NCBI GenBank assembly: GCA_009781635.1
Contig: WQXU01000015.1
Span: 1-61,147 of the forward strand
DNA length: 61,147 nt
Direction: 5' to 3'
Origin: Treponema sp.
Lineage (GTDB): Bacteria > Spirochaetota > Spirochaetia > Treponematales > Breznakiellaceae
This document shows positions 5,965 through 38,993 of the stretch, piece after piece (position 1 is the first letter of the stretch; the number at the start of each line of letters is the position of its first letter). Below the pieces are notes generated by a model. The model had not been told where the DNA came from. It did no database searches and saw nothing but the letters and a program-made list of their open reading frames with translations. The translations under genes were made by a program, and so were the position numbers.

Positions 5965-6672
5965 TTAAATAGGCAAAAACAGAACTGACAATCCGCATAT
6001 AAGAATTGCAGAGCCGGCAAGCGCATGAGCGTACTTTTCAAGTTTTTCTGTTTTTAAAAGCTGAAAACCTTTTAGCCCGATTAATGTCATAACAAGCATT
6101 ACAGAAATTGTAAACACAGAAAAACTTACAGTAACCAAAACAAGTGTAAATATATCCATGGTAGCCGCAGGGTACATTAAAAGCGGGATTAGAGGTTCGC
6201 AGGGGCCAAGTACAAAGAAAATAAAAAGCCCCCAAAATGCATTGTTTTTATTTTTTGATTTTTCAGGCGAATGTTTATGATCTGTATTGTCATGGGCATG
6301 CGAATGAAAAAATGTTTTTCCGTCGGCGCCGGTGTGCGTATGGGTTTTGTTTTTTACTGCGCATCTTATGCCGTAAATTGTATAAATTAATCCAAAGGCA
6401 ATTAATACATATGTTGCAATTACTCCGCGGATATCTTCTATATTAACAAGTGATGTTACCGCAGCTGAAAGGGCAATGCCGAAGAAACCCAAAAGAACAG
6501 AGCCCATTACATGCCCGATTCCGCATAACAATACGATGATAATGGTTTTTTTTACTGCCCAGTTATTCGCCTTGCTAAGAGCGATAAAAGGTATATAGTG
6601 ATCCACTCCGATAAGAGTGTGGATAAGCGCAATGCTTATTGATGTGCCTAATAGAATCATTGTTTCTGTCAT
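5965..6672 (-). CDS. NicO/UreH-type nickel-cobalt transporter with His-rich loop
   Basis: This 235-aa integral membrane protein has six likely membrane helices and the family marks of NicO/UreH-like transporters: HTLIGVDHYIPF in the first helix pair, CGIGHVMGS, and LGPCEPLIPLLMYPAA later. Between the two halves lies a cytoplasmic loop rich in His (HTHTGADGKTFFHSHAHD and following HKH), a typical metal-binding feature. It is the last gene of the acs operon, 25 nt after the RACo stop. Since CODH and acetyl-CoA synthase need nickel and the corrinoid protein needs cobalt, supplying metal to this pathway is the natural reading. The family includes importers and exporters, so direction of transport is inferred from context only. 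Confidence 0.8.
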   Translation of the reverse strand: MTETMILLGTSISIALIHTLIGVDHYIPFIALSKANNWAVKKTIIIVLLCGIGHVMGSVLLGFFGIALSAAVTSLVNIEDIRGVIATYVLIAFGLIYTIYGIRCAVKNKTHTHTGADGKTFFHSHAHDNTDHKHSPEKSKNKNNAFWGLFIFFVLGPCEPLIPLLMYPAATMDIFTLVLVTVSFSVFTISVMLVMTLIGLKGFQLLKTEKLEKYAHALAGSAILICGLSVLFLPI

Positions 6673-6697: not shown

Positions 6698-8500
6698 TCA
6701 TTCGAATAATTTTTTATCAGTATGCGGCAGAAATAACGCGCCTGTATAGTAATCCATGTACCTGGGCTCGCTGCTTAAATCCACATAGGTTATTCTTTTT
6801 GCAAGCTTAAGCTGTTTATTTCTATATTCTTCGCTTATCAGGGTAAGGTATGCTCCAAGCGCCGATGAGTTTCCAAGAAAGGTATATTTTTCATCGGCAA
6901 TACGCGGAAGCAAGCCAATCGTTCTTGCATCTTCAAGGTTTAGAAACCTTCCAAAGCCGCCTGCAACATAAATTTTATCCAGATTACTAAAAGACATTTC
7001 AACGCTTTCAAGCAGGGTCTGGCAGGCGGAAAAAACCGCGCCCTTTGCTCTTATAAAATTGTCGATGTCAGCTTCGCTTATTGTAATCTTTTGTTTGCCG
7101 GGCGATCCTTCGCATAAAATATATTCGAAGGTTTTTTGTGAAAACTTTCCTGCAGAATCGATAATTCCGTTTTTAAAAAGCTCCGCGGCTACGGAGATTA
7201 CACCGGATCCGCAAATACCTATAGGGGGAGCATTGCCGATTGTAAAAATTTGCGGTTTTCCGTTTTTTATAATTACTTTTTCAATTGCTCCAGGGCAGGC
7301 TCTCATTCCGTGCTTTATTCCGCCGCCTTCGAAAGCAGGCCCTGCAGAACATGCGCAGGCGAAAATAAAATCCCTGCTGCCAAGGACAATTTCCCCGTTG
7401 GTGCCAATGTCGATAAATAATATCAGTTCGCCGGGGGATGAATCATCGTCTTTGGGTTCTGATGCAAGTTCTGTGCAGAGCAGCCCTGCTGTTATATCTC
7501 CGCCGACATAGCTTCCAACGCAAGGAGCAAAGAGCAGGGGAGCGTTTTCACAAACCTTAAGCCCTGTCTGCTGCGCTGTGTAAATCTGCGGCTGGAAAAC
7601 AGCCGGCGTGTACGGAGAGAGCCTTATATATTCAGGTATAATGCCAAGGAATATATGGGTCATTACAGTATTCCCGGCAAGGGATACAAATAATATTTCA
7701 GACGGCTCTATTTTTATTTCACCGCAGGCATCAGAAATTAATTCATTGACTGTTTTTAAAATCCTTGCGCGAAGCTCATTCAGATTTTTTTTTGCGTAGT
7801 TTATACGGCCTATTATATCAAGCGCGCATTCAACCTGACTGTTGTATGCGTTGCGCGTAACAAGGACTTTTTTGTCTTCCAAGTCTGTTAATAAGAGGGA
7901 TACAGTTGTGGTGCCTATATCAACTGCCGCGCAGTAAATTTTTTGCTCATTGCCGGCAGAAAAAATATTTATAACTTTTGCAATATTGTTATCTGTAAAA
8001 TAGATAAAAATAATTTCTCCCTCTGCTTCGCGCAGTCTTTCCGGCAGACAGGATAAAACAGAAAGCGGAAGTTCAATAAAGGCGCATTCTGCTTCTCTTT
8101 TAAAAGCTCTTGTAAACCTGTCGGCGTCAGACAGGCCGTCCAGAGGAGCTGCAGGCGCAACTTTTAATTTAATTTTTTTAATAAATGCTTCAGAGTTTTC
8201 ACATGATAATCCGTCCGGAATAAAAGCAATATCTTTTAAATATGAATCTTGAGTTTTGCCGCTATCTGTAAGTTGTTTTAGTTCCACTGTAATAGATTCA
8301 TCCGGCACAGCTGTCCGGCAAATAAGCGCTTCCCGGGTTTCATTATTTTGAGTTATTTTTACAAGGCACTTTTTGCAGCTTCCTTCGCCGCCGCAGGGTG
8401 TTTCAACAAAAATGCCTATAGAACGCGCAGCATCCAGAAGGGATGCGCCTTGCGGAAAATGCGTTTTTATATTGTCAGGCAAAAATGTAATTTCGCTCAT
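6698..8500 (-). CDS. RACo, ATP-dependent reductive activator of the corrinoid iron-sulfur protein
   Basis: This 600-aa protein has a plant-type [2Fe-2S] ferredoxin domain at residues 1-90 with cysteines at 36, 42, 45 and 61 (PCGGEGSCKKC). A linker and middle domain lead into an ASKHA ATPase domain starting near CAAVDIGTTTVSLLL, with FIDIGTNGEIVLG, ACSAGPAFEGGGI and VAGGFGRFLNLEDA. This is the architecture of RACo, which uses ATP to re-reduce Co(II) to Co(I) in the AcsCD corrinoid protein after accidental oxidation. It overlaps the AcsC gene by 1 nt (TAATG), supporting translational coupling to its substrate protein. No defect is visible. Related DUF4445 proteins activate other corrinoid methyltransferases, but the position here makes CFeSP the clear target. 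Confidence 0.93.
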   Translation of the reverse strand: MSEITFLPDNIKTHFPQGASLLDAARSIGIFVETPCGGEGSCKKCLVKITQNNETREALICRTAVPDESITVELKQLTDSGKTQDSYLKDIAFIPDGLSCENSEAFIKKIKLKVAPAAPLDGLSDADRFTRAFKREAECAFIELPLSVLSCLPERLREAEGEIIFIYFTDNNIAKVINIFSAGNEQKIYCAAVDIGTTTVSLLLTDLEDKKVLVTRNAYNSQVECALDIIGRINYAKKNLNELRARILKTVNELISDACGEIKIEPSEILFVSLAGNTVMTHIFLGIIPEYIRLSPYTPAVFQPQIYTAQQTGLKVCENAPLLFAPCVGSYVGGDITAGLLCTELASEPKDDDSSPGELILFIDIGTNGEIVLGSRDFIFACACSAGPAFEGGGIKHGMRACPGAIEKVIIKNGKPQIFTIGNAPPIGICGSGVISVAAELFKNGIIDSAGKFSQKTFEYILCEGSPGKQKITISEADIDNFIRAKGAVFSACQTLLESVEMSFSNLDKIYVAGGFGRFLNLEDARTIGLLPRIADEKYTFLGNSSALGAYLTLISEEYRNKQLKLAKRITYVDLSSEPRYMDYYTGALFLPHTDKKLFE

Positions 8501-9822
8501 TATTTTTTTGCTAATACACTCTTGATAAAACTTTCCAAATCCGCAGCTTCCGCAGGGCCTACAATAACTTTAAATCCCGGAAGGTTTTCTTCAAGCTCTC
8601 CTGAAATTTGAGCAACATAACCGGGGATTACAATTTCTCTTGTATCAACCTGGCTTTCCAGATCAATTTCCCTGATAAACTTGGCGATGCTGGTTCCGGA
8701 AAACTTTCCTGCAGCCCAGGCGGTAAGTACGCTAAAGCCCTCGCATTCAGGAATAATAAGCCATGCGGAAATACCGCAGTTTTCGATCTCGCCTGAAACA
8801 AGAAAGTAGGTAAGGGAAAAGTTTGTCGTAACAAAGACAGGGGATTTTCTGTTTGGCTCGCCTATTGCGTAAAGTTTTGGTTCAACCTGGATTGGTTTTT
8901 GCGGATCTGTGTAAATATTCTGGCGCAGGGCGAAAAGAGTTATAAGCTGCGCAGGGCAAAAAGAGGGAAGTGCAATAATGCCGCCAAACTTGCTGATCTC
9001 CGTAACAGCATAAATAAAATCATCCATTTCGTTTCCGGTGTCAATAAAGCGAAGATAAGCATAACCAAGGGCTTTAATATTCTTTTTAAGCGCCGCTTTT
9101 CTTGCGATGGAATTTGTCTGGAAACTTTCAGATATGCCGCCGGTTTGAAATTCGATTATAAGATCATTAAAACCCTTCTCTTTAATTTTTGAAGTTAATT
9201 CAAAAATGCCGTCTGCATCCGGTGCTGTCACAGCCAAAACCTGATTGTCGCGCTTTGCGATTTCTACAGCTTCATCTGCGGTTTGCAAAGTTATGCCGCA
9301 AAGGATGCTGCGCGAACCTGCAACAGCCTGCGAGGCCTTGTTAAGGCCGGCAATATCATCTGCGCGCAAGATAAGGGGCAGTTTTGTTTTTCCGTAGACC
9401 TTTGCGCAGTAATCTGCAAACAAGCCGCTCTTTTGAGTTATTGCAATTGCGCCTATAAAAAGTTCTTCTCCTACGCGTACAGGCCTGTAATTTTTTATCC
9501 TGTCCGCAAGGGCAAGATCGCTGCCCTCATCAAGACTTACGGCAATTACAGTTTTGTTTACAAAAGTTTTTTCATGCCTGTACATTACGGTCTCTTCACC
9601 AAGCCTGCTTGATATTTCTTTTCCGATTACTACTGCCTTTACAGGAGGTTCGCTTGCAGCTCCAAGTATTTTTTTAGCTTCATCGGAGGCATAGGGGCAA
9701 TCATCGAGCATTGCTTTTTTGGCTGCAAGTTTCATGGCAAAGGCCATGCAGGTGCTGGAACCGCATTCCTTGCAGTTGGTGCCGGGAAGGAGTTTTTGTA
9801 TTTGTAATCCGCTAAGAGCCAT
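8500..9822 (-). CDS. acsC: Corrinoid iron-sulfur protein large (gamma) subunit AcsC
   Basis: This 440-aa protein begins with the [4Fe-4S] domain of AcsC/CdhE: cysteines at 17, 20, 25 and 42 (LPGTNCKECGSSTCMAFA). A TIM-barrel domain and a C-terminal cobamide-binding domain follow (from about residue 320). Together with AcsD it forms CFeSP, which carries the methyl group from methyl-THF to acetyl-CoA synthase. The length matches the family. It starts 1 nt after the AcsB-AcsD fusion ends, so it is likely translated with its partner domain. The partner AcsD is not a separate protein here but the tail of the preceding gene product. Confidence 0.95.
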   Translation of the reverse strand: MALSGLQIQKLLPGTNCKECGSSTCMAFAMKLAAKKAMLDDCPYASDEAKKILGAASEPPVKAVVIGKEISSRLGEETVMYRHEKTFVNKTVIAVSLDEGSDLALADRIKNYRPVRVGEELFIGAIAITQKSGLFADYCAKVYGKTKLPLILRADDIAGLNKASQAVAGSRSILCGITLQTADEAVEIAKRDNQVLAVTAPDADGIFELTSKIKEKGFNDLIIEFQTGGISESFQTNSIARKAALKKNIKALGYAYLRFIDTGNEMDDFIYAVTEISKFGGIIALPSFCPAQLITLFALRQNIYTDPQKPIQVEPKLYAIGEPNRKSPVFVTTNFSLTYFLVSGEIENCGISAWLIIPECEGFSVLTAWAAGKFSGTSIAKFIREIDLESQVDTREIVIPGYVAQISGELEENLPGFKVIVGPAEAADLESFIKSVLAKK

Positions 9823-12800
9823 TTATTTACCCTCGCTTTGTGACATGAGATTGTTTATTGTTTTCTTTAACGCTATCGCAGCTTCCGGGGTATACATAAT
9901 TAATATATCTGCTCCGGCGTAAAGCAGGCTTAAGGCTGTAGCGGTTTCCCAGTAAGCTGCGCGTTTTACAAGATCTCCCCAATCAGGGAAGCTTGACTGC
10001 GGCGCTTTAAACTCTTTTACCTTGGCGCATTCCTGCCCTGCAGAAACTATCATCGGGCTTAGAAGCATGCTGTCTCCTCCAAGACCTGTCAGGCGGATAC
10101 GTTCCATAACTGAATATGTATATTCAATGCCGTAACCGATAGTGCTTGTCATGGGGTCAATGATGATCCTGTCCATGGAAAGCCCCATGTTTGTAAGAAG
10201 GATGTTAAGCTGCTTGCTTATGTTTACATCAATCGGAGCCTGCGCAACCAGGGTGTGTCCGTAGGCCATAACCGCTCCTGCTATTGTTTTGTAATTATCC
10301 TGCTCTGCAAAATTAAAAAGAAGGTTTTCTCCCTCGCAGGCCTGCGCTATTGCCTTCATTACTTCGTTGTTTTTTTCAAAGTGGTTTATGCCTGTAATGA
10401 TTAGCGGCACATCAACAGATGCAAGAATGGATTTGACAAGAGTGACGCTTTGCTCTGCGCTGAAGTTTGCGCGCTCCGGGTGTATGCCGTCAAGGTTAAC
10501 GCTTATTAAATCGGCTGCGTATTTATCCACACAGAGCTTTGCCATTTTAGCAGGTGTTTTTAAAACATCGCCGTAAATGTTACGTAAAACTACAGGATAC
10601 TTTTCGCTTACGCTGTCAAAGACTTCCATGGCAATAAGGGGCCTGTTGGGCATTTGTCCTTCCCAGAAATGAAAAGGCATACAACTGGCTCCTCCTATTG
10701 TAAAAGTTCTGCCCCGTGTGCCGCCTTCTTTTGCCAGGTTTCCAAGCTTTACAGTGTATGTTGCATAATTTGAAGTTTCCGAAGGCAGGGCAAATGATTT
10801 TATGCCGGATATCCTCTCCTGCGCAGAGGGTTCAAGTTTACAAGCTGCAGGTGCAGTTATACTTTGCCCGAGGAATTTCTCGCTTAATGTATTGATAATA
10901 CTTGTGATAATTTCTTTAGTGACGCTTGCTTTAACCTGCTCTGTTATTGCCGCAATATCAACATCAACTTCTTTCTGTTCACTTGCTTCTAAATCGGGTT
11001 TTTTAGTCTCCGTGTCCTTGCTCTCTGTTTCCTCTTTATCATCACTTTGAGCGAAACGGGACATGTCTTCCATTTCAAGAGCAGGGTGCTTTACTTTTTC
11101 CAAAAACGCTTTTAGATCTTTTGCAGTAACAGCCTTTGTTTCGTCGGCTATTTTTTCAATAAATCCGCTTAGTTTTTGTTCTTCAAAACGTTTTAATAAA
11201 TCGCTTTGCAGCAGTTCCTTTAACTCTTTTGGCATCCATACAATTCTTGCGAACCCTCCTTCTGCAGAAAGGAACTTGCGGCTTGTAAGGAACACTTTTC
11301 CGCAGCCGTAAAAACCAGGCGTCTGCTGACCGCCGCCAACGGAGCCTGCAAGAGTAGAAAAAGTCATTCCTGTCGGTGTTTCACCGAGGTATTCGCGGTT
11401 AACGGCCATTACGCCGTTACACTCCGGTATATATGCGCAAATGACTTCAAAACATCCGCAGCTTGTCATGGGTCTGTCCATGATGGAATAGGCGCAGAAG
11501 GCCTCGATTGTTTTGTGGCTGTTTGTATAGACATATTCGTTTACACCGGCCCAGATTCCTTTGACAGGATCAAGGCACTCGCCCTTGTTAAGAGGCTGAT
11601 TCGGGCCTGTCTCATCAATCTCGTACGCCGCTTTTCCGTCAAGCCAGTTGTACGCGCCGCAAAGACCAAGGCGCTCCGGTGTGATTACGCAAACATGGTT
11701 AGGCGCAAAGCTCTGGCAAAGAAGACAGGAATAAAAAGTATCGACAGATTCATCGGTCATTGCTTCCAGACGCCTGTTGCGCTCATCGTAGACTTTTCTG
11801 GCTGTCTCAAGGCGTTTTTCAACTTCGCTCTGGTCTGTTACAAGCGTTACGCGCACTTTATCGACAATGGCAGGGTAGTCCGCCAAAAGTTTGGCATGAA
11901 GGATCTCTGCGTAGTGTTTAAGCCTGAGTCCCTTTGCAAAACCCGCTTTGGAAACACGTGTCCAGACAATGTCGCGCTGCCCCATGTGCCAAATTCCTTC
12001 GGCTCCGTTAACAAGGTGATGTATCTGCCTTTCCAGTATCGGCTCAAAATCGCTTTGCATTTTACGGCCTGCAACTTCCACCCAGATGCCAAGGGGAAGC
12101 CTGCCGCCCGGCTCTACTGTGTCAATATCAGGGCCGATAATATTAATTTCACCGTCTTTAATTTCATCATAGCCGGCGCTTGTCACAAATTCAAAGGCAA
12201 GAGTTCTATTGCCGCCGAACTCCACATGAGTATCTTCCTTGCGGATCCTCTCTCCCTCAAAGGCAGGGCCGTAGGCTACAGGAATTGGTACATCAACTAT
12301 TTTGATCTTGCAGCCGCGCACTTCAAGCGCTTTTTCTACTATTTTATCGTGGGGTATATTTGCGACAACATGCTCGTAGGTGCAAACGCCTGTTGGTAAA
12401 ATCTCCGGGATGTTCGTATCGGAGATAACAGGAAAACCGTAATTGATGGCTCCGGCTGCTGCTGCATACTTGTCAGGCGTTACCTCTCCAAGGGCAATAA
12501 CAAAGGCAAAAATTCTTGTCTTGTTGTATTTAAGGTTTGCTTCGTAGTCTCCCGGTTTTACTCCGCCGAATGAAAGCGCAGCGCGGTTTGCAAATCCAAG
12601 AGCGTAAATTAAGGAAGAAACATCCCGCCCAAAAGGTACAAGGCGCGTTTCCCAGCCAAGCTGAACGCCTTCGGCTGCAAGCTGTTCTGCAAATTGTACG
12701 CCCTTAGTGCATCCGCCCATAAATACATACAAATTTTTCTGCTGAAGCTCCTTTGCGATTTTTACAGCTGTTGCGTTATCGGGCGCCGCTCCTGTTATGG

Positions 12801-13236
12801 CTGCGAAGCCGGGAGCAGTTCCGTCTACAAACTCTATTCCGCGCTCGCGCATTATAACGTCATTTGCGGCTCCAAGCCAGATTCCGTCAACCGGGTTTGG
12901 CCCTGTTAAATACTTGCACGCTTCAATTACTTCGCATGCAAAGAGGGATGCAACGCCTGCATCAAGCGCGCCGCCAAGATAGGGCAGCCATACATTATCA
13001 GAAGGACGTGCCGGAATTAAAGATTCTGCTTCTTCAAGAATACCCTTTAAGTCAGCCAGGGTTTTCATCTGTTTGCCTGTAAATGAATAAATGACAGGCA
13101 GAAAATAATTTGTGTCAGGAAATCCTACGGGATGCTCAAGTCCTTTTTGTTTTATTGCTTCTTCCAGCATGGAACGGGCCTGCGCAGCAAAGGATACGGC
13201 TCCGTCAACAGCGCTTGTACAAATAAATTTTGACAT
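9823..13236 (-). CDS. acsB: AcsB-AcsD fusion: acetyl-CoA synthase plus CFeSP small subunit
   Basis: This 1137-aa frame contains two proteins that are normally separate. Residues 1 to about 721 are acetyl-CoA synthase, full length, with all A-cluster ligands: CLLCQSFAPNHVC at 504-516 and C526 for the cubane, C507 bridging, and the C593-G594-C595 nickel site. Residues about 722-825 form an acidic then helical linker (QSDDKEETESKDTETKKPD, then a region rich in I, V and K). Residues about 826-1137 are the AcsD/CdhD TIM barrel, complete to the end (GGTRGRTFTIGGASCMPFHF, TIGYGIEYTYSVMERIRL). No stop or frameshift separates them. The fusion would hold the methyl carrier beside the A-cluster. It overlaps the AcsA stop/start by 1 nt. 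The gene symbol given is that of the first domain; acsD is the second. Confidence 0.95.
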   Translation of the reverse strand: MSKFICTSAVDGAVSFAAQARSMLEEAIKQKGLEHPVGFPDTNYFLPVIYSFTGKQMKTLADLKGILEEAESLIPARPSDNVWLPYLGGALDAGVASLFACEVIEACKYLTGPNPVDGIWLGAANDVIMRERGIEFVDGTAPGFAAITGAAPDNATAVKIAKELQQKNLYVFMGGCTKGVQFAEQLAAEGVQLGWETRLVPFGRDVSSLIYALGFANRAALSFGGVKPGDYEANLKYNKTRIFAFVIALGEVTPDKYAAAAGAINYGFPVISDTNIPEILPTGVCTYEHVVANIPHDKIVEKALEVRGCKIKIVDVPIPVAYGPAFEGERIRKEDTHVEFGGNRTLAFEFVTSAGYDEIKDGEINIIGPDIDTVEPGGRLPLGIWVEVAGRKMQSDFEPILERQIHHLVNGAEGIWHMGQRDIVWTRVSKAGFAKGLRLKHYAEILHAKLLADYPAIVDKVRVTLVTDQSEVEKRLETARKVYDERNRRLEAMTDESVDTFYSCLLCQSFAPNHVCVITPERLGLCGAYNWLDGKAAYEIDETGPNQPLNKGECLDPVKGIWAGVNEYVYTNSHKTIEAFCAYSIMDRPMTSCGCFEVICAYIPECNGVMAVNREYLGETPTGMTFSTLAGSVGGGQQTPGFYGCGKVFLTSRKFLSAEGGFARIVWMPKELKELLQSDLLKRFEEQKLSGFIEKIADETKAVTAKDLKAFLEKVKHPALEMEDMSRFAQSDDKEETESKDTETKKPDLEASEQKEVDVDIAAITEQVKASVTKEIITSIINTLSEKFLGQSITAPAACKLEPSAQERISGIKSFALPSETSNYATYTVKLGNLAKEGGTRGRTFTIGGASCMPFHFWEGQMPNRPLIAMEVFDSVSEKYPVVLRNIYGDVLKTPAKMAKLCVDKYAADLISVNLDGIHPERANFSAEQSVTLVKSILASVDVPLIITGINHFEKNNEVMKAIAQACEGENLLFNFAEQDNYKTIAGAVMAYGHTLVAQAPIDVNISKQLNILLTNMGLSMDRIIIDPMTSTIGYGIEYTYSVMERIRLTGLGGDSMLLSPMIVSAGQECAKVKEFKAPQSSFPDWGDLVKRAAYWETATALSLLYAGADILIMYTPEAAIALKKTINNLMSQSEGK

Positions 13237-15182
13237 TATATTGCCCTCCTGTCTTTCATATCAAAGAGTTTGCGCTCTTCTTTCCTGTTTATTCCAAGCC
13301 CTTCCCTTGCGGCATTAATAATTTCTGTGATGCGCTTTGCAGCTTCCAGAGGATCATCATAATAATGAAAGCATGCGCCAAAATCTTTTGTCACACCGCC
13401 GTCGGCATCAGTTCCATGCAGATAGTTATGAACATTCGCAGAGCCTGATGTGTAAAAGGGGTTGCCAAGAAAAATATCGACGCCGGAAGCTACAAAGTAG
13501 CATCCTATTGATATTGCTTTCTCGCTCATCCATTCAGCGGCCACGCCAACAGCAGGAAGCGTTCCCAAATCTTCACCAAGTCCTCCCTCGTTTATTATTT
13601 CTGTTGCAGCCTCCAGTATGCGGGTATTGTCAACGCAGCTGCCCAAATGCAATATGGGCGGGATGCCCACAGCTTCGCATACTTCACGCAAACCTGGTCC
13701 TGCGATTTTAAGGGCGGTTTCGGGGGTGAGCCTTCCTGCCTTAGCGGAACTTATGGCAGCGCAGCCTGTTTGCAGAACAAGAATATTGCGCTTTAAAAGT
13801 TCTTCTGTTAATACATTGATGTATTCGTCTGTTCTTCGTTTTGTGCTTGTGCAGCCTGCGATTCCCACTACGCCGAAAATTCTGTTTTGAATAATGGCGT
13901 CATTAAGGGGACGGAAGGAAGCTCTGTATTTGCCGCCTAGCATGTATTTGATTGCATCCACGCTGAAACCTGCGACAAGTTCCTCTTTGTCAGCCGGGAT
14001 TTTCACTTTTGATTTATCCCTTTTTTTAAAGTTGTCTATGGCCCGTTTAACAATTTCTTTTGCGGCAGCCAGGGGATTTACCTCTCCTACCGCCATGTGT
14101 TTTGCGCCTATTGTTTTTGCCATATCGGTTGTGGAAACAATTTCTGTGTGATACTCCTTTGCAGCATCAATTAAACCAGGCATGACGCACTGTACGTCTA
14201 CTACCATCATTTCCACAGCCCCTGTAATGATGGCAAGTTCCTGCTGCAGCATGTTCCCGGCCAGGGGAACTCCATGGCGCATAAGCACTTCGTTTGCCGT
14301 GCAGCAAATACCTGCAATTGTTATACCCGAAGCTCCCGCATTTTTTGCGTATTCTTTTATTTCAGGAGCAGAAACTGCAACTGTAAGTATTTCAGAAATT
14401 GCAGGCTCATGTCCGTGGATTAAAATATTTACTGTGTCCTCTTTTAAAACTCCAAGATTGGCGGAGCTTTTCAGGGGAGAGGGCGTTCCGAACAGAATGT
14501 CTGACACAATCGAAGCGATTCTTGAGCCGCCCCAGCCGTTGGAAAGAGCAGTGCGGAAGGCATGCATTAAAAGGTTTTTATAATCGTGATCAACGCCGAT
14601 TGATGTACGGTGCATTGATTCCACGACCATGCGGTCAATTCCGCAGGGTTTGATGCCCTTTGCTTCCCAAATGCCCTGCCGTTTTTTCGGAGCCAGTTCC
14701 AGTGTTTTTAATGTTTCTTCCTGGGAAGAAAACTCGTTTAAGAACAAGTTTGCCAAATCAAGCGCAATGGAATTTATTCCGCGGTTTTCCGTTTCTATCC
14801 CGTAACGCCTTGCGTTTAGTAAAAGCACTTTTTCATCTTTTATTGCAAAGCCTTCCGCCTTGCCTTCGGCAACATGTTTGAGCTTTAAAATCAAATGTCT
14901 TCCGTGGTCTGAATGCGCCGATGTGCCTGCCGCCACTTCCCGGAGGAAGTTACGCGCAACAATTGTGTCGGCGTCAGCTCCGCAAATACCCTTGGGTGCT
15001 TTGACAGTGATTCTGCACGGCCCCATATGGCAGACGCGGCAGCATACTCCCTTTAAGCCGAAACTGCAATGAGTCTTCTGATGTTCTGCGCGATCAAAGC
15101 AGGTTTCAACGCAGTCAGCTTTGCTTTTTTCAAGCATTTCAAGTGATGCATTATCGCTTACTTTTGAATGTAAATTATCCAT
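13236..15182 (-). CDS. acsA: Carbon monoxide dehydrogenase catalytic subunit AcsA/CooS
   Basis: This 648-aa protein is a Ni-CODH of normal length. N-terminal cysteines for the D and B clusters are in CVETCFDRAEHQKTHC and CCRVCHMGPC. C-cluster blocks are present: GICCTANEVLMRHG, GIAGCTSTK, LQTGCAAISSAKAG, LHLGSCVDNTRI and IGCYFVASGVDIFLG. It reduces CO2 to CO (or the reverse) and passes CO through a tunnel to acetyl-CoA synthase, whose gene follows directly with a 1-nt overlap. AAGGAGC stands before the ATG. No key residue seems missing. Confidence 0.96.
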   Translation of the reverse strand: MDNLHSKVSDNASLEMLEKSKADCVETCFDRAEHQKTHCSFGLKGVCCRVCHMGPCRITVKAPKGICGADADTIVARNFLREVAAGTSAHSDHGRHLILKLKHVAEGKAEGFAIKDEKVLLLNARRYGIETENRGINSIALDLANLFLNEFSSQEETLKTLELAPKKRQGIWEAKGIKPCGIDRMVVESMHRTSIGVDHDYKNLLMHAFRTALSNGWGGSRIASIVSDILFGTPSPLKSSANLGVLKEDTVNILIHGHEPAISEILTVAVSAPEIKEYAKNAGASGITIAGICCTANEVLMRHGVPLAGNMLQQELAIITGAVEMMVVDVQCVMPGLIDAAKEYHTEIVSTTDMAKTIGAKHMAVGEVNPLAAAKEIVKRAIDNFKKRDKSKVKIPADKEELVAGFSVDAIKYMLGGKYRASFRPLNDAIIQNRIFGVVGIAGCTSTKRRTDEYINVLTEELLKRNILVLQTGCAAISSAKAGRLTPETALKIAGPGLREVCEAVGIPPILHLGSCVDNTRILEAATEIINEGGLGEDLGTLPAVGVAAEWMSEKAISIGCYFVASGVDIFLGNPFYTSGSANVHNYLHGTDADGGVTKDFGACFHYYDDPLEAAKRITEIINAAREGLGINRKEERKLFDMKDRRAI

Positions 15183-15197
15183 AAGGGCTCCTTATAT

Positions 15198-15956
15198 TCA
15201 AAGATGATTAATTATTTCCGCTATTTTACTATATACAATATTTGAATCTGAAATTTCCAGATAGCATTTGCTTTGTTCTGCGAAAGCTGCGATTTCTTCA
15301 TTTTCAGGAAGCCCGATGACAAGATCGGCTCCGGTTTTTGTTTTGATATCTTCGATTCTATCAGGGAGTTTACCGTTTCGCAGTCTGTTTATTACTAGCG
15401 CAAGCTTGCTGTATGTCATTTCCATTTCAGATGCAAGTTCATAAAGACGAAGCAGAGTTTGCAGTCCTGAATTGGAAGCATCCGATACAAGGACGAGCAT
15501 GTCCGCCTTTTGAACAATACGGCGGGAAAGATTTTCAAGGCCGGCTTCATTATCAAGAACAACATAGGGGTATCCTGATGATATTTCTGCGATGATGTCT
15601 TTTAGAATATTATTCGCATAACAGTAACAGCCCTCTCCTTCCGGTCTTCCCATGGCAACAAGGTCAAACCCTTTAGCCTCTGCAATAGAACTCTCCAGTT
15701 TTAACCGCAGAAGTTCCCGTTTGGAAATACCTGAATCTGTTTCTGTTTTCACTTCTTCACGAGCGCGTCCTACAGTACTTGTTACGTTTACCCCAAGCGC
15801 CGAATCAAGGCAGCTGTTCGGATCGGCATCTATCGCAAGTACAGGCGTTTTTCCTGCGGCAAGCAATTGTTTAATTAAAAGCGCGCAGACAGTTGTTTTA
15901 CCAACACCGCCTTTTCCCGTTACCGCGATAAGTCTGCTTTTATTTTTTATGCTCAT
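15198..15956 (-). CDS. CooC-type nickel-insertion ATPase
   Basis: This 252-aa MinD/ParA-like ATPase has a deviant Walker A motif (VTGKGGVGKTTVC), a switch II region (YVVLDNEAGLENLSRR) and the CXC metal-binding motif in GRPEGEGCYCYAN. CooC dimers bind nickel through this CXC and insert it into the CODH C-cluster in an ATP-dependent step. It directly precedes acsA in the operon and overlaps the other CooC-like gene by 4 nt. Two different CooC paralogues occur side by side: by position this one more likely serves CODH and the other acetyl-CoA synthase (AcsF), but that division is an inference. Confidence 0.9.
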   Translation of the reverse strand: MSIKNKSRLIAVTGKGGVGKTTVCALLIKQLLAAGKTPVLAIDADPNSCLDSALGVNVTSTVGRAREEVKTETDSGISKRELLRLKLESSIAEAKGFDLVAMGRPEGEGCYCYANNILKDIIAEISSGYPYVVLDNEAGLENLSRRIVQKADMLVLVSDASNSGLQTLLRLYELASEMEMTYSKLALVINRLRNGKLPDRIEDIKTKTGADLVIGLPENEEIAAFAEQSKCYLEISDSNIVYSKIAEIINHL

Positions 15957-16729
15957 GAAAGCCTTCCCTGCCAGATTGCTTCTATTAAAGTTTCGATTGT
16001 TTTTTGCTGTTCATCATTCATTCCATCAAGAGCTGTGATGCCCTCTCTGTCAGCTTTGCGAATGCTTTCGCAGTAGGGCAGGAAGGCTGATACTTTTAAA
16101 CCGGGAAAACTATCAGAAATAAAAACTTCATCATCCTTGCAGGTGATTTTATTTCCAACGATTACAAAATTTGAAAGACCTATTTCTTCAGACATTCTTA
16201 TGATGCTGTGCGCGCAATCAAGGGCGCGTTTGCCAGGCTCTACGACAATTATCATTACATCGATCCCTGTAACAGTCGCCCGGCCAAGATGTTCAATTCC
16301 GGCTTCCATATCCATTATAAGACTCTCATTTTTATACAGTACAAGATCGTTAACAAGGGATTTAATAAAAACATTTTCCGGGCAGGCGCATCCGCCTCCG
16401 CCCCTTTTTGCAGCGCCAAGCACTAAAAGTTCCACGCCCTTATGTTTAAATGCAAACTTATCAGCAACATCGGACACCTCTGGGTTCAATTTAAAAACCT
16501 GCCCGTACTTGTCTATTTTTGCTCCTGTGCGCTCTTCAATGAGCGCAATCTCCTGCGAGATGGGAATAATTTTTTCCGAGTCCGGAATGCCAAGAGCGCC
16601 GGCCAAATTGGCATCAGGGTCTGCATCCAGGGCAAGGACTCTTATGCCTTTTTTTGCAAGAAGCAGGGCGATGCAAGATGCGATAGTGGACTTGCCGGCT
16701 CCTCCCTTTCCGGAAACTGCAATTTTCAT
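15953..16729 (-). CDS. CooC/AcsF-type nickel-insertion ATPase, second copy
   Basis: This 258-aa protein is another MinD-like ATPase: MKIAVSGKGGAGKSTIAS at the N terminus, LIMDMEAGIEHLGRATV in the middle, and the CXC metal site in RGGGGCACPEN. The frame is open upstream to 16819, but the ATG at 16729 overlaps the preceding stop (ATGA) and puts the P-loop at the usual position, so I take it as the start. AcsF activates acetyl-CoA synthase by loading nickel into the A-cluster; CooC does the same for CODH. It is only distantly similar to the neighbouring copy, so this is not a recent duplication. Confidence 0.9.
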   Translation of the reverse strand: MKIAVSGKGGAGKSTIASCIALLLAKKGIRVLALDADPDANLAGALGIPDSEKIIPISQEIALIEERTGAKIDKYGQVFKLNPEVSDVADKFAFKHKGVELLVLGAAKRGGGGCACPENVFIKSLVNDLVLYKNESLIMDMEAGIEHLGRATVTGIDVMIIVVEPGKRALDCAHSIIRMSEEIGLSNFVIVGNKITCKDDEVFISDSFPGLKVSAFLPYCESIRKADREGITALDGMNDEQQKTIETLIEAIWQGRLS

Positions 16730-17790
16730 CCGTATTTTTCTTTCATCCGCTTTGTCAGATCCAGCATTAAAGAGAAAACTTTTTCTGCATCTGCTGTTGC
16801 AAGAGAGCCTGTTCCGCAAGAGGGAGTTATAATTGCCTGTTCTGTAATCAGCTTTTTATCGATCCCCCTGGAGGCAAGATTGTCCATCATATTTTCAAGC
16901 TGCTTTTCAAGTGATTCCACTGTCTGCTCTCTTATCTTTTCGGAAGTGGGCACAACACCCCAGGCAAGAGAGCCCCCTCTTTCCAAATGCTGCCTGACAT
17001 GGCCCTCGTACATGGCAATTGTTTCTCCGTACTCAAATGCGTCAAAATTTACAATGTCTACACCAGCATCAATAAGAATGCTCCACTCGGTATTTCCGCA
17101 GCAGTGGATTCCCGCTACAGCGCCTTCAGCATGAATAGCTTCGATTACCTCGGCAAGGATTCCAACAACATCTTCACGTTTGACGGAGACATAGGTGGAA
17201 CTGCCAAAGGCCGATAAAATCGGTTCATCTATAAAGCAGATAATATTCTCTGCAAATGGTTTAAACTTTTGTATCTGCCAGCGGCTTTTCATTACAATAG
17301 ATTTAACAATTACATCGCGGAACTCTTCGTTGTAGTACATGGCGCGTTTGTTCTCATCAACAATAGAGAGAGCGAATGTGACAGGCCCTGTAGACTGAAC
17401 CTTAAGCCAGGGTAATTTTTTACCTGTTTCTTTTAAGGTTTCCAAAAGCGCATATATACCCTTAGAATATTTTTCGCTTATTGCCATGGGTGAAAAATCT
17501 TTTGTTCCGTTATCGGGATCGGTTGCAGCCATGTAGGCTTCATAAAATTCCGCAAATTTTTCCGAATAATCTTCGTCTGTCTGAAAATACATGCGGCTTT
17601 TTTCTGTATCTATAACAGCGCAGGGAATGTTCTCGGAGTACTGGACTTCCATTTGCTCCAGCAATCCAAGCCGCGGCAATTGAGGCCATATTGGCGCGTC
17701 AAGTGATTTTAAGGAAACTGATACTGCATACCTGGGATCTTCAAAGGGCATTGAGCCGATTGCAGTAGAAAGAAATTTTGTTTTTGTCAT
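16726..17790 (-). CDS. Core MetE-like cobalamin/corrinoid-dependent homocysteine methyltransferase
   Basis: This 354-aa protein belongs to the UROD/MetE C-terminal superfamily. It begins FLSTAIGSMPFEDPRYA and carries the zinc ligands of MetE-type enzymes: His and Cys in AGIHCCGNTEW and a distant Cys in ITPSCGTGSL. It lacks the N-terminal folate-binding half of MetE. Stand-alone core methionine synthases of this type (the MesB family) are known from anaerobes with the Wood-Ljungdahl pathway and are predicted to take methyl from the corrinoid iron-sulfur protein. Its place in the acs operon, 14 nt after a homocysteine methyltransferase gene and overlapping the CooC gene, fits that role. An MtaA-like methyl-corrinoid transferase is the alternative. 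Confidence 0.8.
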   Translation of the reverse strand: MTKTKFLSTAIGSMPFEDPRYAVSVSLKSLDAPIWPQLPRLGLLEQMEVQYSENIPCAVIDTEKSRMYFQTDEDYSEKFAEFYEAYMAATDPDNGTKDFSPMAISEKYSKGIYALLETLKETGKKLPWLKVQSTGPVTFALSIVDENKRAMYYNEEFRDVIVKSIVMKSRWQIQKFKPFAENIICFIDEPILSAFGSSTYVSVKREDVVGILAEVIEAIHAEGAVAGIHCCGNTEWSILIDAGVDIVNFDAFEYGETIAMYEGHVRQHLERGGSLAWGVVPTSEKIREQTVESLEKQLENMMDNLASRGIDKKLITEQAIITPSCGTGSLATADAEKVFSLMLDLTKRMKEKYG

Positions 17791-17804: not shown

Positions 17805-18686
17805 TTAATTCAATGCTTCTTTGATAGCTCTAATATGATCAGGCGTTGTTCCGCAGCAGCCGCCTATGATGTTGGCGCCGGCAGCTGCAAGCTTTGGAGC
17901 CAGAGCTGCCATATCCTGCGGAGTTTCCGGAAAGACAACTTGTCCTCCCTCATTTTTCGGAAGGCCTGCATTGGCATGAACAAGAATCGGAATATCCTTA
18001 TTAACAGCGCGCATCTGACTTACGATTTCGATCATTCTTTCAAGTCCGTTACCGCAATTTGCACCTACAATATCAGCGCCTGCTTCTATAACCGCATTCA
18101 TTGCGGAAATGGGGTCTGCACCCATCATTGTTCTGTATTCACCCTGCACTGTTTTCTCAAAAGTAAATGTGCAGATTATTTCAAGGCCGGTATTTTCCTT
18201 TACAGCTTTTACAGCCTGGCAGGCTTCTTCTATATCGCTCATTGTTTCGATACAGGCTGCATCCGCTCCGCCTTTTTCAAACGCAACTGCCTGTGTCTTA
18301 AATGCATCGTAGAGTTCTTCTTCGGTTACTTCTTCTGTTACAAGCATCTTACCTGTCGGGCCTATGGAAGCGATTACCCACTTGTCACCTGCAGCTTCGC
18401 GGGAGATTCTTGCCGCAGCTTCGTTTATTTCCGCCGCCCTTTCGGCAAGACCGTAATGCTGAAGTTTAAAACTGCTTCCTCCGAAGCTGTCTGTTTCCAC
18501 CATGTCCGCACCGGCGTCTATATAGCTTTTTGCCACATCCAAAACATCCGCAGGCCTGTCTATACACCAAAGTTCAGGGCATTCGCCGGGTTTTAAGCCT
18601 TTCTTATGCAGAAAAGTCCCCCATGCGCCGTCAGAAATTAACACCTTTCCCGATTTGAGAGCCTGCGTAATTTTTTGCTTTGCCAT
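17805..18686 (-). CDS. Homocysteine S-methyltransferase domain protein (MetH N-domain/BHMT type)
   Basis: This 293-aa protein is a complete Hcy-binding TIM barrel: ISDGAWGTFLHKKGL at the start, ETDSFGGSSFKL, and the three zinc cysteines in VGANCGNG and GGCCGTTPDHI near the end. It corresponds to the first module of MetH without the folate, cobalamin and reactivation modules, so it needs a methyl donor in trans, either a methyl-corrinoid protein or a small donor such as betaine. It is the first gene of the acs operon and is preceded by GGAGATAAAA. Together with the next gene it suggests methionine synthesis from the corrinoid methyl pool. Confidence 0.88.
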   Translation of the reverse strand: MAKQKITQALKSGKVLISDGAWGTFLHKKGLKPGECPELWCIDRPADVLDVAKSYIDAGADMVETDSFGGSSFKLQHYGLAERAAEINEAAARISREAAGDKWVIASIGPTGKMLVTEEVTEEELYDAFKTQAVAFEKGGADAACIETMSDIEEACQAVKAVKENTGLEIICTFTFEKTVQGEYRTMMGADPISAMNAVIEAGADIVGANCGNGLERMIEIVSQMRAVNKDIPILVHANAGLPKNEGGQVVFPETPQDMAALAPKLAAAGANIIGGCCGTTPDHIRAIKEALN

Positions 18687-18774: not shown

Positions 18775-19338
18775 ATGGGATATGATGATGCGTTAAACCT
18801 TGCCATGCAAAAACTTTCGCAGATAAAACCAGAAACAGTCTGCGGGAATTGCGGCGTGCGTTACGAAGGGGGAGAGTATTTTCTTTCATGGTTTAATATG
18901 GAAAAATCCTTGTCGAATGCTTCTGTACCTCATAAAATCTTATGGCTTCATTACATGACTGCAGATGGGTCAAAGAAAGAGGCAGGACAATTGATGTCTT
19001 ACAGGGAAGCTGCTCCTGCGCTTTTTTATGAGCCAAACTTCAATAAGAGGGCAGTGCGCCCCCTTGTTAACTGCTTTGGTAAAAATCCCGAAAAATTAAT
19101 TGAAACAGGCCTTGCTCTGGGCGGACAAAAAGCCTTAACAGGTGATACATCAATTAAAGCAAATGTCCTTCCTTACCTTCCTTTAACCTTTGTCATATGG
19201 AAGGGGTGTGATGAGTTTCCTCCCGGCGGCAATATACTGTTTGATAAATCAGCCAAAACCTGGTTTCCGCCTGAAGATTTGGCAGTTCTGGCAAGCTTTG
19301 CAGTTTACGAGTTAATTGGCGCAAGCAAAAGATTGTAA
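18775..19338 (+). CDS. DUF3786 family protein
   Basis: This 187-aa protein resembles DUF3786, a family of unknown function seen mainly in anaerobes. The visible marks are VCGNCGVRYEGGEYFLSWF near the N terminus, LWLHYMTADG, and a C-terminal PLTFVIWKGCDEFPPGGNILFD. The frame is open further upstream to 18655, but the ATG at 18775 has GAAGGA 7-12 nt before it and the extension runs into the acs promoter. It is transcribed away from the acs operon and shares its intergenic region, so co-regulation is plausible. The paired cysteines (CGNC) could bind metal; this is a guess. Confidence 0.8.
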   Translation: MGYDDALNLAMQKLSQIKPETVCGNCGVRYEGGEYFLSWFNMEKSLSNASVPHKILWLHYMTADGSKKEAGQLMSYREAAPALFYEPNFNKRAVRPLVNCFGKNPEKLIETGLALGGQKALTGDTSIKANVLPYLPLTFVIWKGCDEFPPGGNILFDKSAKTWFPPEDLAVLASFAVYELIGASKRL

Positions 19339-35352: not shown

Positions 35353-36343
35353 GAGCATCAGCGCGGCTCATATCGGGCATATAACCGCTTTTTATAATCT
35401 TTTCATATAATAGCCGGAAGGTTTCCGCCGCTTCTTCTGCAGTTGAGGCTTTGTTATTGTAAATCGCATAGAGTTTTCTTGTTGCAATGGGCGACAGATT
35501 GGGCATTACTACATTTGCGCCGGCATCCAGCGCAAGTTCCCTTCCGTTAGGTGCAATCACGCTCATTGCTGTTACGGCAGGGATAAGCGTTTGCGGCAGA
35601 AGTATACGCGTAAGGGCTATCATTTTCAGGCTTAAAATCAGGTTTCCCTGCGGATACGCGCCAAAGGGAGTATCTGCCTGGGGAATAAAAGGGCCTATGC
35701 CAGCCATTTCAGGCTGCAGTTCTTCCAGAAAGCGGATATCCGCAAGCAGGTTTTCAGGGGTTTGAAAGGGGGTTCCAGCCATGAATCCGGCTCCAACCTG
35801 ATACCCGATTTTCTTTAATGCCAAAAGGCATTTTTTGCGGTTATTTAAAGTCATGTTAGAAGGGTGGAGTTTAGAATAATGCTCATGTGATGCAGTTTCA
35901 TGACGAAGCAGGAACCTGTTGGCTCCGGCTTTAAAAAAAAGTTCGTAATCTTTTTGTGTGCGCTCCCCGACAGAGAGAGTGATTGCATGATTTGGAAAAT
36001 CATGCCTTATTGCAGATACAATTGTTGCAACACGCCCGCTTGTAAAAAAGGGATCTTCTCCGCCTTGCAGCACAAAGGTTTTTATTCCAAGGCCGTTTCC
36101 CCTCTGACAGCAGGCAAGGATTTCTTCGCAGGAGAGCCTGTAACGCATTAATTTTTTATTTGAACGGCGAATACCGCAATAATAGCAATCGTTTTTACAG
36201 TAGTTTGTCATTTCTATTAAGCCGCGGAAAAAAACTCTTTTTCCGTAAACTTCATCACGCGCCTTACGGCTCTCTGCAAAGAGGGATTCAATATCATCAT
36301 TATTTTCCGTTGTAATTATTTTTAGTATGTCATCGTCATTCAT
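35342..36343 (-). CDS. hydE: [FeFe]-hydrogenase maturase HydE (radical SAM)
   Basis: This 333-aa radical SAM enzyme has its CX3CX2C motif at C49, C53 and C56 (CKNDCYYC), preceded by FRGLIEMTNY, and HydE blocks such as LQGGEDPFFTSG, LRHETASHEHYSKLHP and PNLSPIATRKLYAIYNNK. HydE helps build the dithiomethylamine-bridged diiron subcluster with HydG and HydF. The second cluster motif found in some HydE proteins is not obvious. It overlaps hydG by 4 nt. Confidence 0.95.
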   Translation of the reverse strand: MNDDDILKIITTENNDDIESLFAESRKARDEVYGKRVFFRGLIEMTNYCKNDCYYCGIRRSNKKLMRYRLSCEEILACCQRGNGLGIKTFVLQGGEDPFFTSGRVATIVSAIRHDFPNHAITLSVGERTQKDYELFFKAGANRFLLRHETASHEHYSKLHPSNMTLNNRKKCLLALKKIGYQVGAGFMAGTPFQTPENLLADIRFLEELQPEMAGIGPFIPQADTPFGAYPQGNLILSLKMIALTRILLPQTLIPAVTAMSVIAPNGRELALDAGANVVMPNLSPIATRKLYAIYNNKASTAEEAAETFRLLYEKIIKSGYMPDMSRADALAV

Positions 36344-37725
36344 ACAAAAAAATCACGTCCTTTGCCTGCACGGATATTATTAATGTTTTCAATTGTTTTT
36401 TGCCGGATTGATTCATTTGCTATATTCAGGATTTCTTTTTCTATAATACCTGCGGTCTTTTGCGTGAAGATTCCGCCGCCGTAGTCCATTGCGTATTCGC
36501 ACAGGGTCATAAGCGCATTTGGAAGACAGACATTTTTAATTTCACCGGATTTTGCAAGTGACATAAACCGATCCCCTGTTCTGCCTCCGCGGTAACAGGC
36601 AGTGCAGAAACTTGGAATATAGCCGTCATCCATCAGTTCAGAAATAATCGATGTTGCGCTTCGCTCGTCATTTACAAGAAACTGCGAAGTTGTCTGCCTG
36701 TTTTTGGAGTATCCGCCGACTTCAGTTTTGGAACCTGCGCTTATTTGCGATATTCCCAGCTGTAAAAGTTTTTTCCGCATATCATGATTTTCCCTTGTAG
36801 AAAGAATCATTCCCGTAAAGGGCAGCGCAATCCGGATAATTGCAACGATTTTTGCGAATGTTTCATCATCAACAAGATTGGGAAAATTATTAATATTCAT
36901 TCCAGAAGCAGGGCAGAGCCGCGGAACGGAAATGGTATGAAAGCCAAAATTATATTTTTTTTCCAGATGTTCGTTGTGCAAAAGAAGCCCCATTACTTCA
37001 AAGCGGGGGTCTGCAAGGCCGAAGAGAACACCGCCGCCGACATCATCAATACCGGCATCCGCTGCGCGATCGAAAGCGTTTAGGTGCCAGTGAAAATCCG
37101 ACTTTGGTCCTGCAGGATGAACAATTTTATAGGTTGGTTCGTGATAGGTTTCCTGAAATAAAATATAGGTGCCAATCCCTGCGTTCTTTAGTTTGCGGTA
37201 ATTATCTTCTGTGCTTGCCGCAATGTTTACATTAATGCGCCTTATCTCGCCGTTTTCAAATTTCATGTCATAGATGGTTTTTATGCATTCAATAATATAA
37301 TCAATGGAGCATTGCGCATCTGCTTCTCCTGATTCAATGGCAAGCCTTTTATGCCCCATCATTTCAAGAGCTTTTACTTCCTGGCGTATTTCATCCATTG
37401 TCAGTTTACTTCTGTTAAAAACATGCTCTTTATTAAAACTGCAGTAAGTGCAGGAATTAATGCAAAAATCACTTACATATAACGGAGCGAACATGACTAT
37501 TCTGCTGCCGTATATTCTTTTTTTTATCATTCCGGCTATTTCATAAATGCGTTTTAAGTGCTCTTCATTATTATTAACAAGAAGACAAGCTATCTCCTTA
37601 TGAGAGAGAGCTTCTCCTTCTTGAGCCTTGTCAAGAGAACGCCTGATGCCGGCATTATCTGTAAATTTTGCTTCTTCCAGCAGCTCTTCAATATAAGCGC
37701 TGTTTATAAAATTTGTTGTCATCAA
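36340..37725 (-). CDS. hydG: [FeFe]-hydrogenase maturase HydG (tyrosine lyase)
   Basis: This 461-aa radical SAM enzyme cleaves tyrosine to provide CO and cyanide ligands for the H-cluster. The N-terminal CX3CX2C is at C88, C92 and C95 (CINSCTYCSFNKEH). The C-terminal auxiliary cluster motif CX2CX22C is present, beginning in SFCTACYRGGRTGDRFM and ending in NVCLPNA. Other HydG marks are LFQETYHEPTYKIVHPAG and HTISVPRLCPASG. Length is normal for the family. It overlaps hydE by 4 nt. Confidence 0.96.
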   Translation of the reverse strand: MMTTNFINSAYIEELLEEAKFTDNAGIRRSLDKAQEGEALSHKEIACLLVNNNEEHLKRIYEIAGMIKKRIYGSRIVMFAPLYVSDFCINSCTYCSFNKEHVFNRSKLTMDEIRQEVKALEMMGHKRLAIESGEADAQCSIDYIIECIKTIYDMKFENGEIRRINVNIAASTEDNYRKLKNAGIGTYILFQETYHEPTYKIVHPAGPKSDFHWHLNAFDRAADAGIDDVGGGVLFGLADPRFEVMGLLLHNEHLEKKYNFGFHTISVPRLCPASGMNINNFPNLVDDETFAKIVAIIRIALPFTGMILSTRENHDMRKKLLQLGISQISAGSKTEVGGYSKNRQTTSQFLVNDERSATSIISELMDDGYIPSFCTACYRGGRTGDRFMSLAKSGEIKNVCLPNALMTLCEYAMDYGGGIFTQKTAGIIEKEILNIANESIRQKTIENINNIRAGKGRDFFV

Positions 37726-37811
37726 GTTTAAATATAATAAAAATGAGCGCGTTTGTCATTATAGGTTATTGACTTACCGGCTTTTTCATTTTTATGGCAG
37801 GGGATCGGTGC

Positions 37812-38993
37812 TTAAGTAGAAAATACCGCAATACTGCGCTTGAGTATTCCGGAAAGATGCGCAAGAGTAATCCCGTAATTTGTAAATGGAATATTCTGCT
37901 CCCCTGCAAGATCTCTTCGGTACTGCATCTCGCGTTCATTAAGCATACAGGAACCGCAATGAATGATAAGCTTGTAAGCAGACAAGTCCTGAGGAAAATC
38001 TCCTGCCGAACAGAAGCTGTACTGTATCTCTTTTGAGCAGTGTGCTTTGATAAGGCGGGGAATTTTGACAGTTCCAATATCGTCGCATTGGCGGTGATGA
38101 GTGCATCCCTCGCATATCAGTATTTTATCTCCCTCATTCAGGGTGTCAAGGCAGGATGCTCCTTTAACGGAAGTTTCCAAAAAACCTTTATAACGGGCAA
38201 ATAAAATTGAAAACGATGTAAGGGCAATCTCCTGCGGCACAATTGCGGAAACTTCCTTAAACACCTGACTGTCGGTTATAACAAGAGCAGGTTTTACCCC
38301 AATGCAAGAAAGCGTTTTTTGCAATTCAGTTTCTCTTACAGCAATAACAGCTGCGCCTGCTTCCAGAATATCGCGTATCACCTGCTGCTGGGGAAGTATT
38401 AGCCGGCCCTTGGGCGCAGCCTTATCAATTGGGATTACAAGGATGACAAAATCATTTTTATTGATTAAATCAGATACAAGTTTTTTGTCCGAATCCTTTA
38501 AAAACGCAAGTTCTGTAATTCTATTTTTTAATTTGTCTATGTTTAATCCTGTTTTGGCGCTGACGGTAAGTATTTCACTTTTTTCTTCAGTACTGTGCAA
38601 ATCGCCTTTATTGAATACCGCTATATAAGGTATATTTTTTGCTTTTAGAATATCTATAAATCTGCTTTCAGTTTCAGACAGGGAAGGAGTATTAGCTTCA
38701 AGAACAAGCACAGCCAAATCGGTTTTATTTAAAACCCGTTTTGCTCTGTTTACGCGCATTTCGCCCAATTCACCCTCATCGTCAAAACCCGGGGTGTCAA
38801 TTATTACAACAGGTCCCAAAGGAAGCATTTCCATGGATTTATACACAGGGTCTGTGGTTGTCCCTTTGATATCGCTTACAATGGCCAGATTTTGCCCAGT
38901 TACGGCATTTACAAGGGATGATTTCCCTGTATTTCTGCGGCCAAAAAAGGCGATATGAATGCGGTTTGCCTGCGGCGTCTCATTCATGCTCAT
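37812..38993 (-). CDS. hydF: [FeFe]-hydrogenase maturation GTPase/scaffold HydF
   Basis: This 393-aa protein has an N-terminal GTPase domain (GRRNTGKSSLVNA at 18-30, DTPGFDDEG, NKGD) and a C-terminal cluster-binding domain with CEGCTHHRQC and HCGSCMLNE, which supply the Cys ligands of the [4Fe-4S] site. HydF receives the diiron unit from HydE and HydG and delivers it to the hydrogenase. It is the first gene of hydF-hydG-hydE, with an 86-nt gap before hydG. No hydrogenase gene is present nearby. Confidence 0.95.
   Translation of the reverse strand: MSMNETPQANRIHIAFFGRRNTGKSSLVNAVTGQNLAIVSDIKGTTTDPVYKSMEMLPLGPVVIIDTPGFDDEGELGEMRVNRAKRVLNKTDLAVLVLEANTPSLSETESRFIDILKAKNIPYIAVFNKGDLHSTEEKSEILTVSAKTGLNIDKLKNRITELAFLKDSDKKLVSDLINKNDFVILVIPIDKAAPKGRLILPQQQVIRDILEAGAAVIAVRETELQKTLSCIGVKPALVITDSQVFKEVSAIVPQEIALTSFSILFARYKGFLETSVKGASCLDTLNEGDKILICEGCTHHRQCDDIGTVKIPRLIKAHCSKEIQYSFCSAGDFPQDLSAYKLIIHCGSCMLNEREMQYRRDLAGEQNIPFTNYGITLAHLSGILKRSIAVFST

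Follow-up and report, generated by a model that had tools for sequence, protein, structure and literature searches.

A fused acetyl-CoA synthase and corrinoid-protein small subunit (AcsB-AcsD) in a termite-gut-type treponeme and in relatives from many phyla

Introduction

Acetyl-CoA synthase (ACS, AcsB) is one of the oldest carbon-fixing enzymes, and how it meets the methyl-carrying corrinoid protein (CFeSP) is a long-standing question. ACS must open to meet CFeSP, and methanogen ACDS keeps the two in one stable assembly (PMC11474084). In a published model, the N-terminal domain of ACS touches AcsD, the small subunit of CFeSP (PMC12289521). Cultured treponemes carry separate genes for ACS and for the small and large subunits, together with a methyltransferase gene (PMC3082573). 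For Dehalococcoides, which has neither AcsE nor MetF, a methyl path has been proposed that runs from acetyl-CoA through CFeSP and MesB to methionine (PMC7005905, PMC7857596).

Here, we describe a locus of a termite-gut-type treponeme, contained in a 61,147-nucleotide contig (the window), in which AcsB and AcsD are encoded as one chain. Like the bacterial CODH/ACS of Moorella thermoacetica, Carboxydothermus hydrogenoformans and Clostridium autoethanogenum, it has the AcsB N-terminal domain and the A-cluster cysteines, in an operon with a CooS-type CODH, CooC, AcsC and an AcsV-type activator. Unlike them, it has no separate acsB and acsD genes and no gene for the CH3-THF:CFeSP methyltransferase AcsE in the cluster, two marks of the canonical acetogen operon, and carries instead MesB and a homocysteine methyltransferase; the methylene-THF reductase MetF, which marks the Wood-Ljungdahl methyl branch, is missing from the genome. 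The likeness to archaeal ACDS, under the reading that we favour, would lie in acetyl-CoA cleavage and in holding ACS and CFeSP together. However, archaeal ACDS consists of separate subunits, with a CdhC devoid of the bacterial N-terminal domain and a CdhA-type CODH, whereas here we find a covalent fusion with a bacterial-type CODH_A_N domain and a CooS. With the Dehalococcoides MesB/CFeSP system, the locus shares the Zn-ligand pattern, a genome without AcsE, MetF and MetE, and an expected acetyl-CoA-cleaving ACS (PMC7005905, PMC7857596), but it differs in having a CODH and in the fusion of AcsD to AcsB. Full-text searches of the open-access literature returned no account of AcsB joined to AcsD; an earlier mention in subscription journals or in evolutionary studies of CODH/ACS may exist.

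Results

The fused gene occupies window positions 9823-13236 on the minus strand, as a single ORF of 1137 codons that opens with ATG and has AGGAGG as a plausible ribosome site; the plus strand of the same interval has many stops. A first-pass annotation had placed an uninterrupted AcsB-AcsD frame at exactly these coordinates, leaving the strand unstated, and the ORF calls, the Pfam and NCBIfam matches, structure matches and 74 single-ORF homologues bear this out. Pfam domains CODH_A_N (residues 22-110), CdhC (318-472), ACS_CODH_B_C (483-725) and CdhD (831-1066) are all matched far over cut-off. The AcsB part (residues 1-725; 11062-13236, minus strand; Pfam, NCBIfam and alignment) scores 1047 bits against the NCBIfam ACS alpha/beta model NF040764 (cut-off 800) over residues 11-725, with the N-terminal, middle and C-terminal bacterial ACS domains all over the model cut-off. 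All six A-cluster ligands proposed at first pass (C504, C507, C516, C526, C593, C595) were recovered, and none of them varies in an alignment of 16 fused proteins. An AcsD barrel, predicted to be complete from about residue 826, was likewise recovered (residues 827-1137; 9826-10758, minus strand), with 364 bits against the AcsD subfamily model NF003376 (cut-off 280) over residues 828-1131 and a match to the solved AcsD 4djd_D (E=3.5e-91). PDB matches to the bacterial CODH/ACS were 7zkj, 1oao and 6ytt.

The two parts are joined by a linker of ~100 residues (726-826; 10759-11061, minus strand), in which the alignment, a structure model and the sequence delineate an acidic disordered stretch, a conserved helix and a second disordered stretch. 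The earlier description of a linker that is first acidic and then helical proved accurate: 37% of residues 726-760 are acidic (D/E), and a helix lies at about 761-789 (10870-10956, minus strand), with a consensus of roughly TKEIVxxIIxTLSxKFLG. The helix comes from a low-confidence model; the alignment shows conservation of its helical pattern. A search of solved structures for a homologue of the linker gave just one chance-level match. For the full-length protein, AlphaFold gave a model too poor (mean pLDDT 55) to define the domain geometry.

An acidic disordered stretch such as 726-760 would be protease-sensitive, and in one Hydrogenedentota homologue the AcsB frame ends, right ahead of the helix, in a TGATG that overlaps an ATG belonging to the AcsD frame; the cell might thus contain two separate proteins, through linker proteolysis or an internal start. 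We regard this as very unlikely, since one open frame is kept in 74 homologues and residues 726-852 contain no in-frame ATG, GTG or TTG codon, which rules out an internal start yielding a separate AcsD.

When 84,980 species genomes were scanned, at least 580 relatives were retrieved, the best 80 of which were taken for analysis. AcsB and AcsD form a single ORF in 74 of these 80. Of the remaining six, four are truncated by the end of their contig ahead of AcsD; the other two, both from Hydrogenedentota, have separate genes. KSB1, Aminicenantes and SAR324 are represented among the 74 fused loci, in addition to at least 14 named phyla. The AcsB-AcsD fusion is no local oddity. An assembly or binning artefact, conceivable for a source genome that is a 51-contig draft, has a negligible probability, given that the single-frame fusion recurs in independent assemblies from many habitats and that five other Treponema bins carry it, with 82-83% identity in the best segment.

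Of the 34 Spirochaetota genomes that gave a match, roughly one in three carries the fused form. In other members of the window's genus, ACS is unfused and quite distinct (about 44% identity), and two genomes of the same genus, G016 (L010, L016) and G029 (L009, L014), carry two different unfused AcsB genes each. Separate acsB, acsD and acsC genes, with a gene of 261 aa at the place of acsE, are found in two complete genomes of the same family, where open frames of 1045-1063 aa had suggested a second fusion that turned out to be false. With this ordinary separate-gene cluster in the family, the fusion is not characteristic of treponemes. The two genomes may be those of Treponema primitia ZAS-2 and T. 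azotonutricium ZAS-9. In a 297-genome sample of the phylum of a Syntrophaceae bin, the AcsB matches listed outside that bin lie in frames of at most 912 aa, with one exception, a 1233-aa frame that turned out to hold separate genes.

Some loci depart from the single frame. The TGATG at L090:12521-12525, from a Hydrogenedentota genome inside the fused clade, looks like a natural gene split. At L093, the frame is split where the linker contains a run of N, and this is, therefore, no independent evidence of fission. In L013 (contig C69 of G037), a break near AcsB residue 400 leaves the fused gene in two frames, perhaps through a sequencing error or because it is a pseudogene.

The fusion might merely set stoichiometry and assist co-folding, so that, with AcsC bound, ACS and CFeSP would behave in the ordinary way and the linker would be mechanistically idle. 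The linkers of fused homologues, about 73-232 residues between domain matches and mostly unconserved, would suit such a role, as would the separate genes of the two Hydrogenedentota loci within the clade. Against it stand the persistence of the fusion in nearly all members of the clade, which come from at least 14 phyla, and the conserved helix inside an otherwise unconserved linker, and we consider it improbable.

The relationships of the fused proteins were assessed in trees of both parts. In trees that also contained the closest unfused relatives and the treponeme type of unfused ACS, fused AcsB forms one clade of 75 rows (SH-aLRT 97), a count that includes the two split Hydrogenedentota and one contig-cut locus; fused AcsD also forms one clade, of 71 rows (SH-aLRT 98). 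These single clades are most simply explained by one fusion event and its wide horizontal transfer thereafter, and the trees allow a single origin, short of proof. The window's treponemes sit beside Bacillota bins in the AcsB tree, and the window treponeme probably acquired its fusion horizontally.

The nearest unfused operons (L174-L191), from the phylum of the Syntrophaceae bin, have AcsB 56-60% and AcsD 41-42% identical to the respective domains of the fusion where compared directly. They differ from the fused loci in that acsD lies apart from acsB, mostly before cooS, and acsE lies near acsC. A simple read-through of adjoining acsB and acsD genes is, therefore, ruled out, and acsD must have been relocated before it was fused. 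Among these unfused-ACS relatives, four encode a MetF-AcsD fusion of 839-897 aa joined by a long linker (L179:11599-14253, L186:9925-12618, L187:11298-13976 and L190:6551-9070). In at least three of the four, this linker has a helix ending in (F/L)LG, and AcsD may thus be a recurrent fusion partner.

The remaining genes of the window operon lie on the minus strand on both sides of the fusion and were assigned with Pfam and NCBIfam unless otherwise indicated. The CFeSP large subunit gene acsC (8500-9822; 440 aa, with a CdhD-type barrel and a 4-Cys FeS domain) is a separate gene that follows the fusion gene with a 0-nt gap. It is followed by an AcsV/RACo-type corrinoid reductive activator (6698-8500; 600 aa), which scores 560 bits against NF040756, below the cut-off of 800. 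Just after the operon, a membrane protein with a DsbD_2 Pfam match and a His-rich loop seen directly (5965-6672, minus strand) is possibly a metal (nickel or cobalt) transporter. Preceding the fusion are the Ni-CO dehydrogenase gene cooS/acsA (13236-15182; 648 aa), whose product is over the cut-off of TIGR01702 and far below that of TIGR00314 (cdhA), and two cooC-like Ni-insertion ATPase genes identified by Pfam and operon comparison (15198-15956 and 15953-16729, the latter with a likely internal ATG start in an ORF listed to 16819). Further upstream lie a gene for a MesB-type core methionine synthase (16726-17790; 354 aa), assigned from its ligands and model, and one for a homocysteine S-methyltransferase of the MetH N-terminal type (17805-18686; 293 aa). 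A DUF3786 gene on the plus strand (18775-19338, in an ORF listed from 18655; Pfam and operon comparison) is recurrently linked to the cluster. DUF3786 genes adjoin both fused and unfused CODH/ACS operons, and G575 has a similar gene ahead of cooS. Window positions 36340-38993, some 20 kb away from the ACS operon, encode two proteins of [FeFe]-hydrogenase maturation, HydF and a radical SAM protein of the BATS type.

Across phyla, the fused loci follow the order SMT-MesB-CooC-CooC-CooS-AcsBD-AcsC-AcsV, often with DUF3786. A tblastn survey of 80 fused loci (81 minus L193, a duplicate of L025) and 18 unfused loci, the nearest relatives L174-L191, found acsE near acsC in 14 of the 18 unfused loci versus none of the 80 fused ones. 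MesB was found in 55 of the 80 fused loci, a lower bound since many of them are cut by contig ends, and in none of the 18 unfused. The curated cut-off of the AcsE model was dropped as a discriminator, as the folate-type methyltransferase beside acsD in unfused treponemes also reaches only ~204 bits; ORF size and gene position were used in its place. ORF clusters c7, c8 and c10 of the operon comparison were discarded as antisense shadow artefacts.

The 354-aa MesB-like protein has a MetE-type catalytic barrel without the folate domain (model pLDDT 88). The top PDB matches of the model are to MetE, with structures of MtaA-type methyltransferases and URO-D close behind cobalamin-independent methionine synthase. 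Its Zn ligands, H229, C231, D250 and C325, are conserved in at least 97% of 34 sequences, with a spacing of 2, 19 and 75, versus 2, 19 and 76 in DET0516 (positions 214/216/235/311; PMC7857596). The match to the NCBIfam methionine synthase model is weak, so that membership in the MesB family rests on fold, ligands and context.

We searched the window genome (G000; 2.77 Mb, 51 contigs, 99.3% complete) for enzymes that supply or use methyl groups. It has no PF02219 match (MetF), no MetE and no stand-alone AcsE; the signal for a folate-binding methyltransferase is limited to one MetH-like ORF of 497 aa (L102:538-2031, contig C7), which contains the homocysteine domain and part of the folate domain, ends early and is probably truncated. 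FTHFS is present. Without MetF, MetE, a stand-alone AcsE or an intact MetH, and with MesB in the operon instead of acsE, the acetogenic, methyl-loading use implied by the first-pass annotation is doubtful in this genome. MetF is also absent from the fused treponemes G014 (97% complete) and G027 (94%) and from four gut Clostridia-type genomes. Environmental fused genomes, by contrast, mostly have MetF and MetH-like ORFs (800-1260 aa), and a few encode a folate-type methyltransferase as an ORF of its own (273-433 aa); the fused class may, therefore, lack one shared physiology. Elsewhere in the window genome, a gene set at L200:2938-9258 (contig C2) encodes a corrinoid protein, a URO-D-type methyltransferase, a DUF2284-like protein and an ASKHA-type activator. 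It could be another methyl entry; no obvious first methyltransferase was found beside these genes.

Discussion

The reading that we favour, at a probability of about 0.5, is that the fused protein is a single-chain ACS and CFeSP small subunit that forms a tethered, ACDS-like and distinct unit, probably evolved once and spread horizontally, which passes methyl groups of acetyl-CoA through MesB to methionine. One AcsD is made per AcsB, and the earlier expectation that the fusion forces equal amounts thus stands. It had also been proposed that AcsC must assemble onto the AcsD domain, and the position of acsC, as a separate gene directly after the fusion, supports this. Bound to the AcsD tail, AcsC would keep the corrinoid near the nickel A-cluster, and the flexible linker with its conserved helix would tether the methyl-carrying protein to that site. 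ACS and CFeSP would then form a permanent complex with a tethered methyl donor. A flexible linker of at least 100 residues would be long enough for ACS to open toward CFeSP, and possible partners of the linker helix are AcsC, CODH and a second copy of the protein.

As neither MetF nor AcsE is present, we infer that acetyl-CoA is the source of the methyl groups and MesB their way out, as in the path proposed for Dehalococcoides (PMC7005905). The fused ACS would take them from acetyl-CoA, MesB would hand them to homocysteine to yield methionine, and CODH would oxidise the CO released by the cleavage. A stronger version is more tentative and, in our judgement, somewhat less probable than its negation: that the fused proteins represent an unrecognised, horizontally spread CODH/ACS class dedicated to splitting acetyl-CoA for methionine methyls, while CODH removes the CO. 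Such a class would be a bacterial analogue of ACDS, covalently joined, and would be biosynthetic rather than energetic.

Alternatively, the fused enzyme could be synthetic (acetogenic), its CFeSP being loaded by a MetH-like folate-corrinoid protein, by the corrinoid/URO-D set or by the MesB-like protein acting as an entry enzyme. CODH, two CooC ATPases, the AcsV-type activator and FTHFS are all there, and the corrinoid protein, URO-D methyltransferase and activator-like gene of the window genome could load the carrier. The MetF, MetH-like and stand-alone folate-type methyltransferase genes of environmental fused genomes make it possible that methionine supply is not the sole role, the MesB-like model is also matched by MtaA-type structures, and a full CODH/ACS operon seems large for a methionine-only need. 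However, acsE is absent from all 80 fused loci, MetF is absent from the three fused treponemes and the four gut Clostridia-type genomes, and core-MetE proteins lack the folate-binding half (PMC7857596). We, thus, consider an acetogenic role rather unlikely, and retain methionine supply from acetyl-CoA as the preferred reading.

This natural fusion fixes its partners at 1:1 and could give a stable complex for structural and kinetic work. The exchange of acsE for mesB questions the practice of reading acsB in a genome as a sign of reductive acetogenesis, and the many gut and sediment bins that carry the fused form may use their fused ACS differently.
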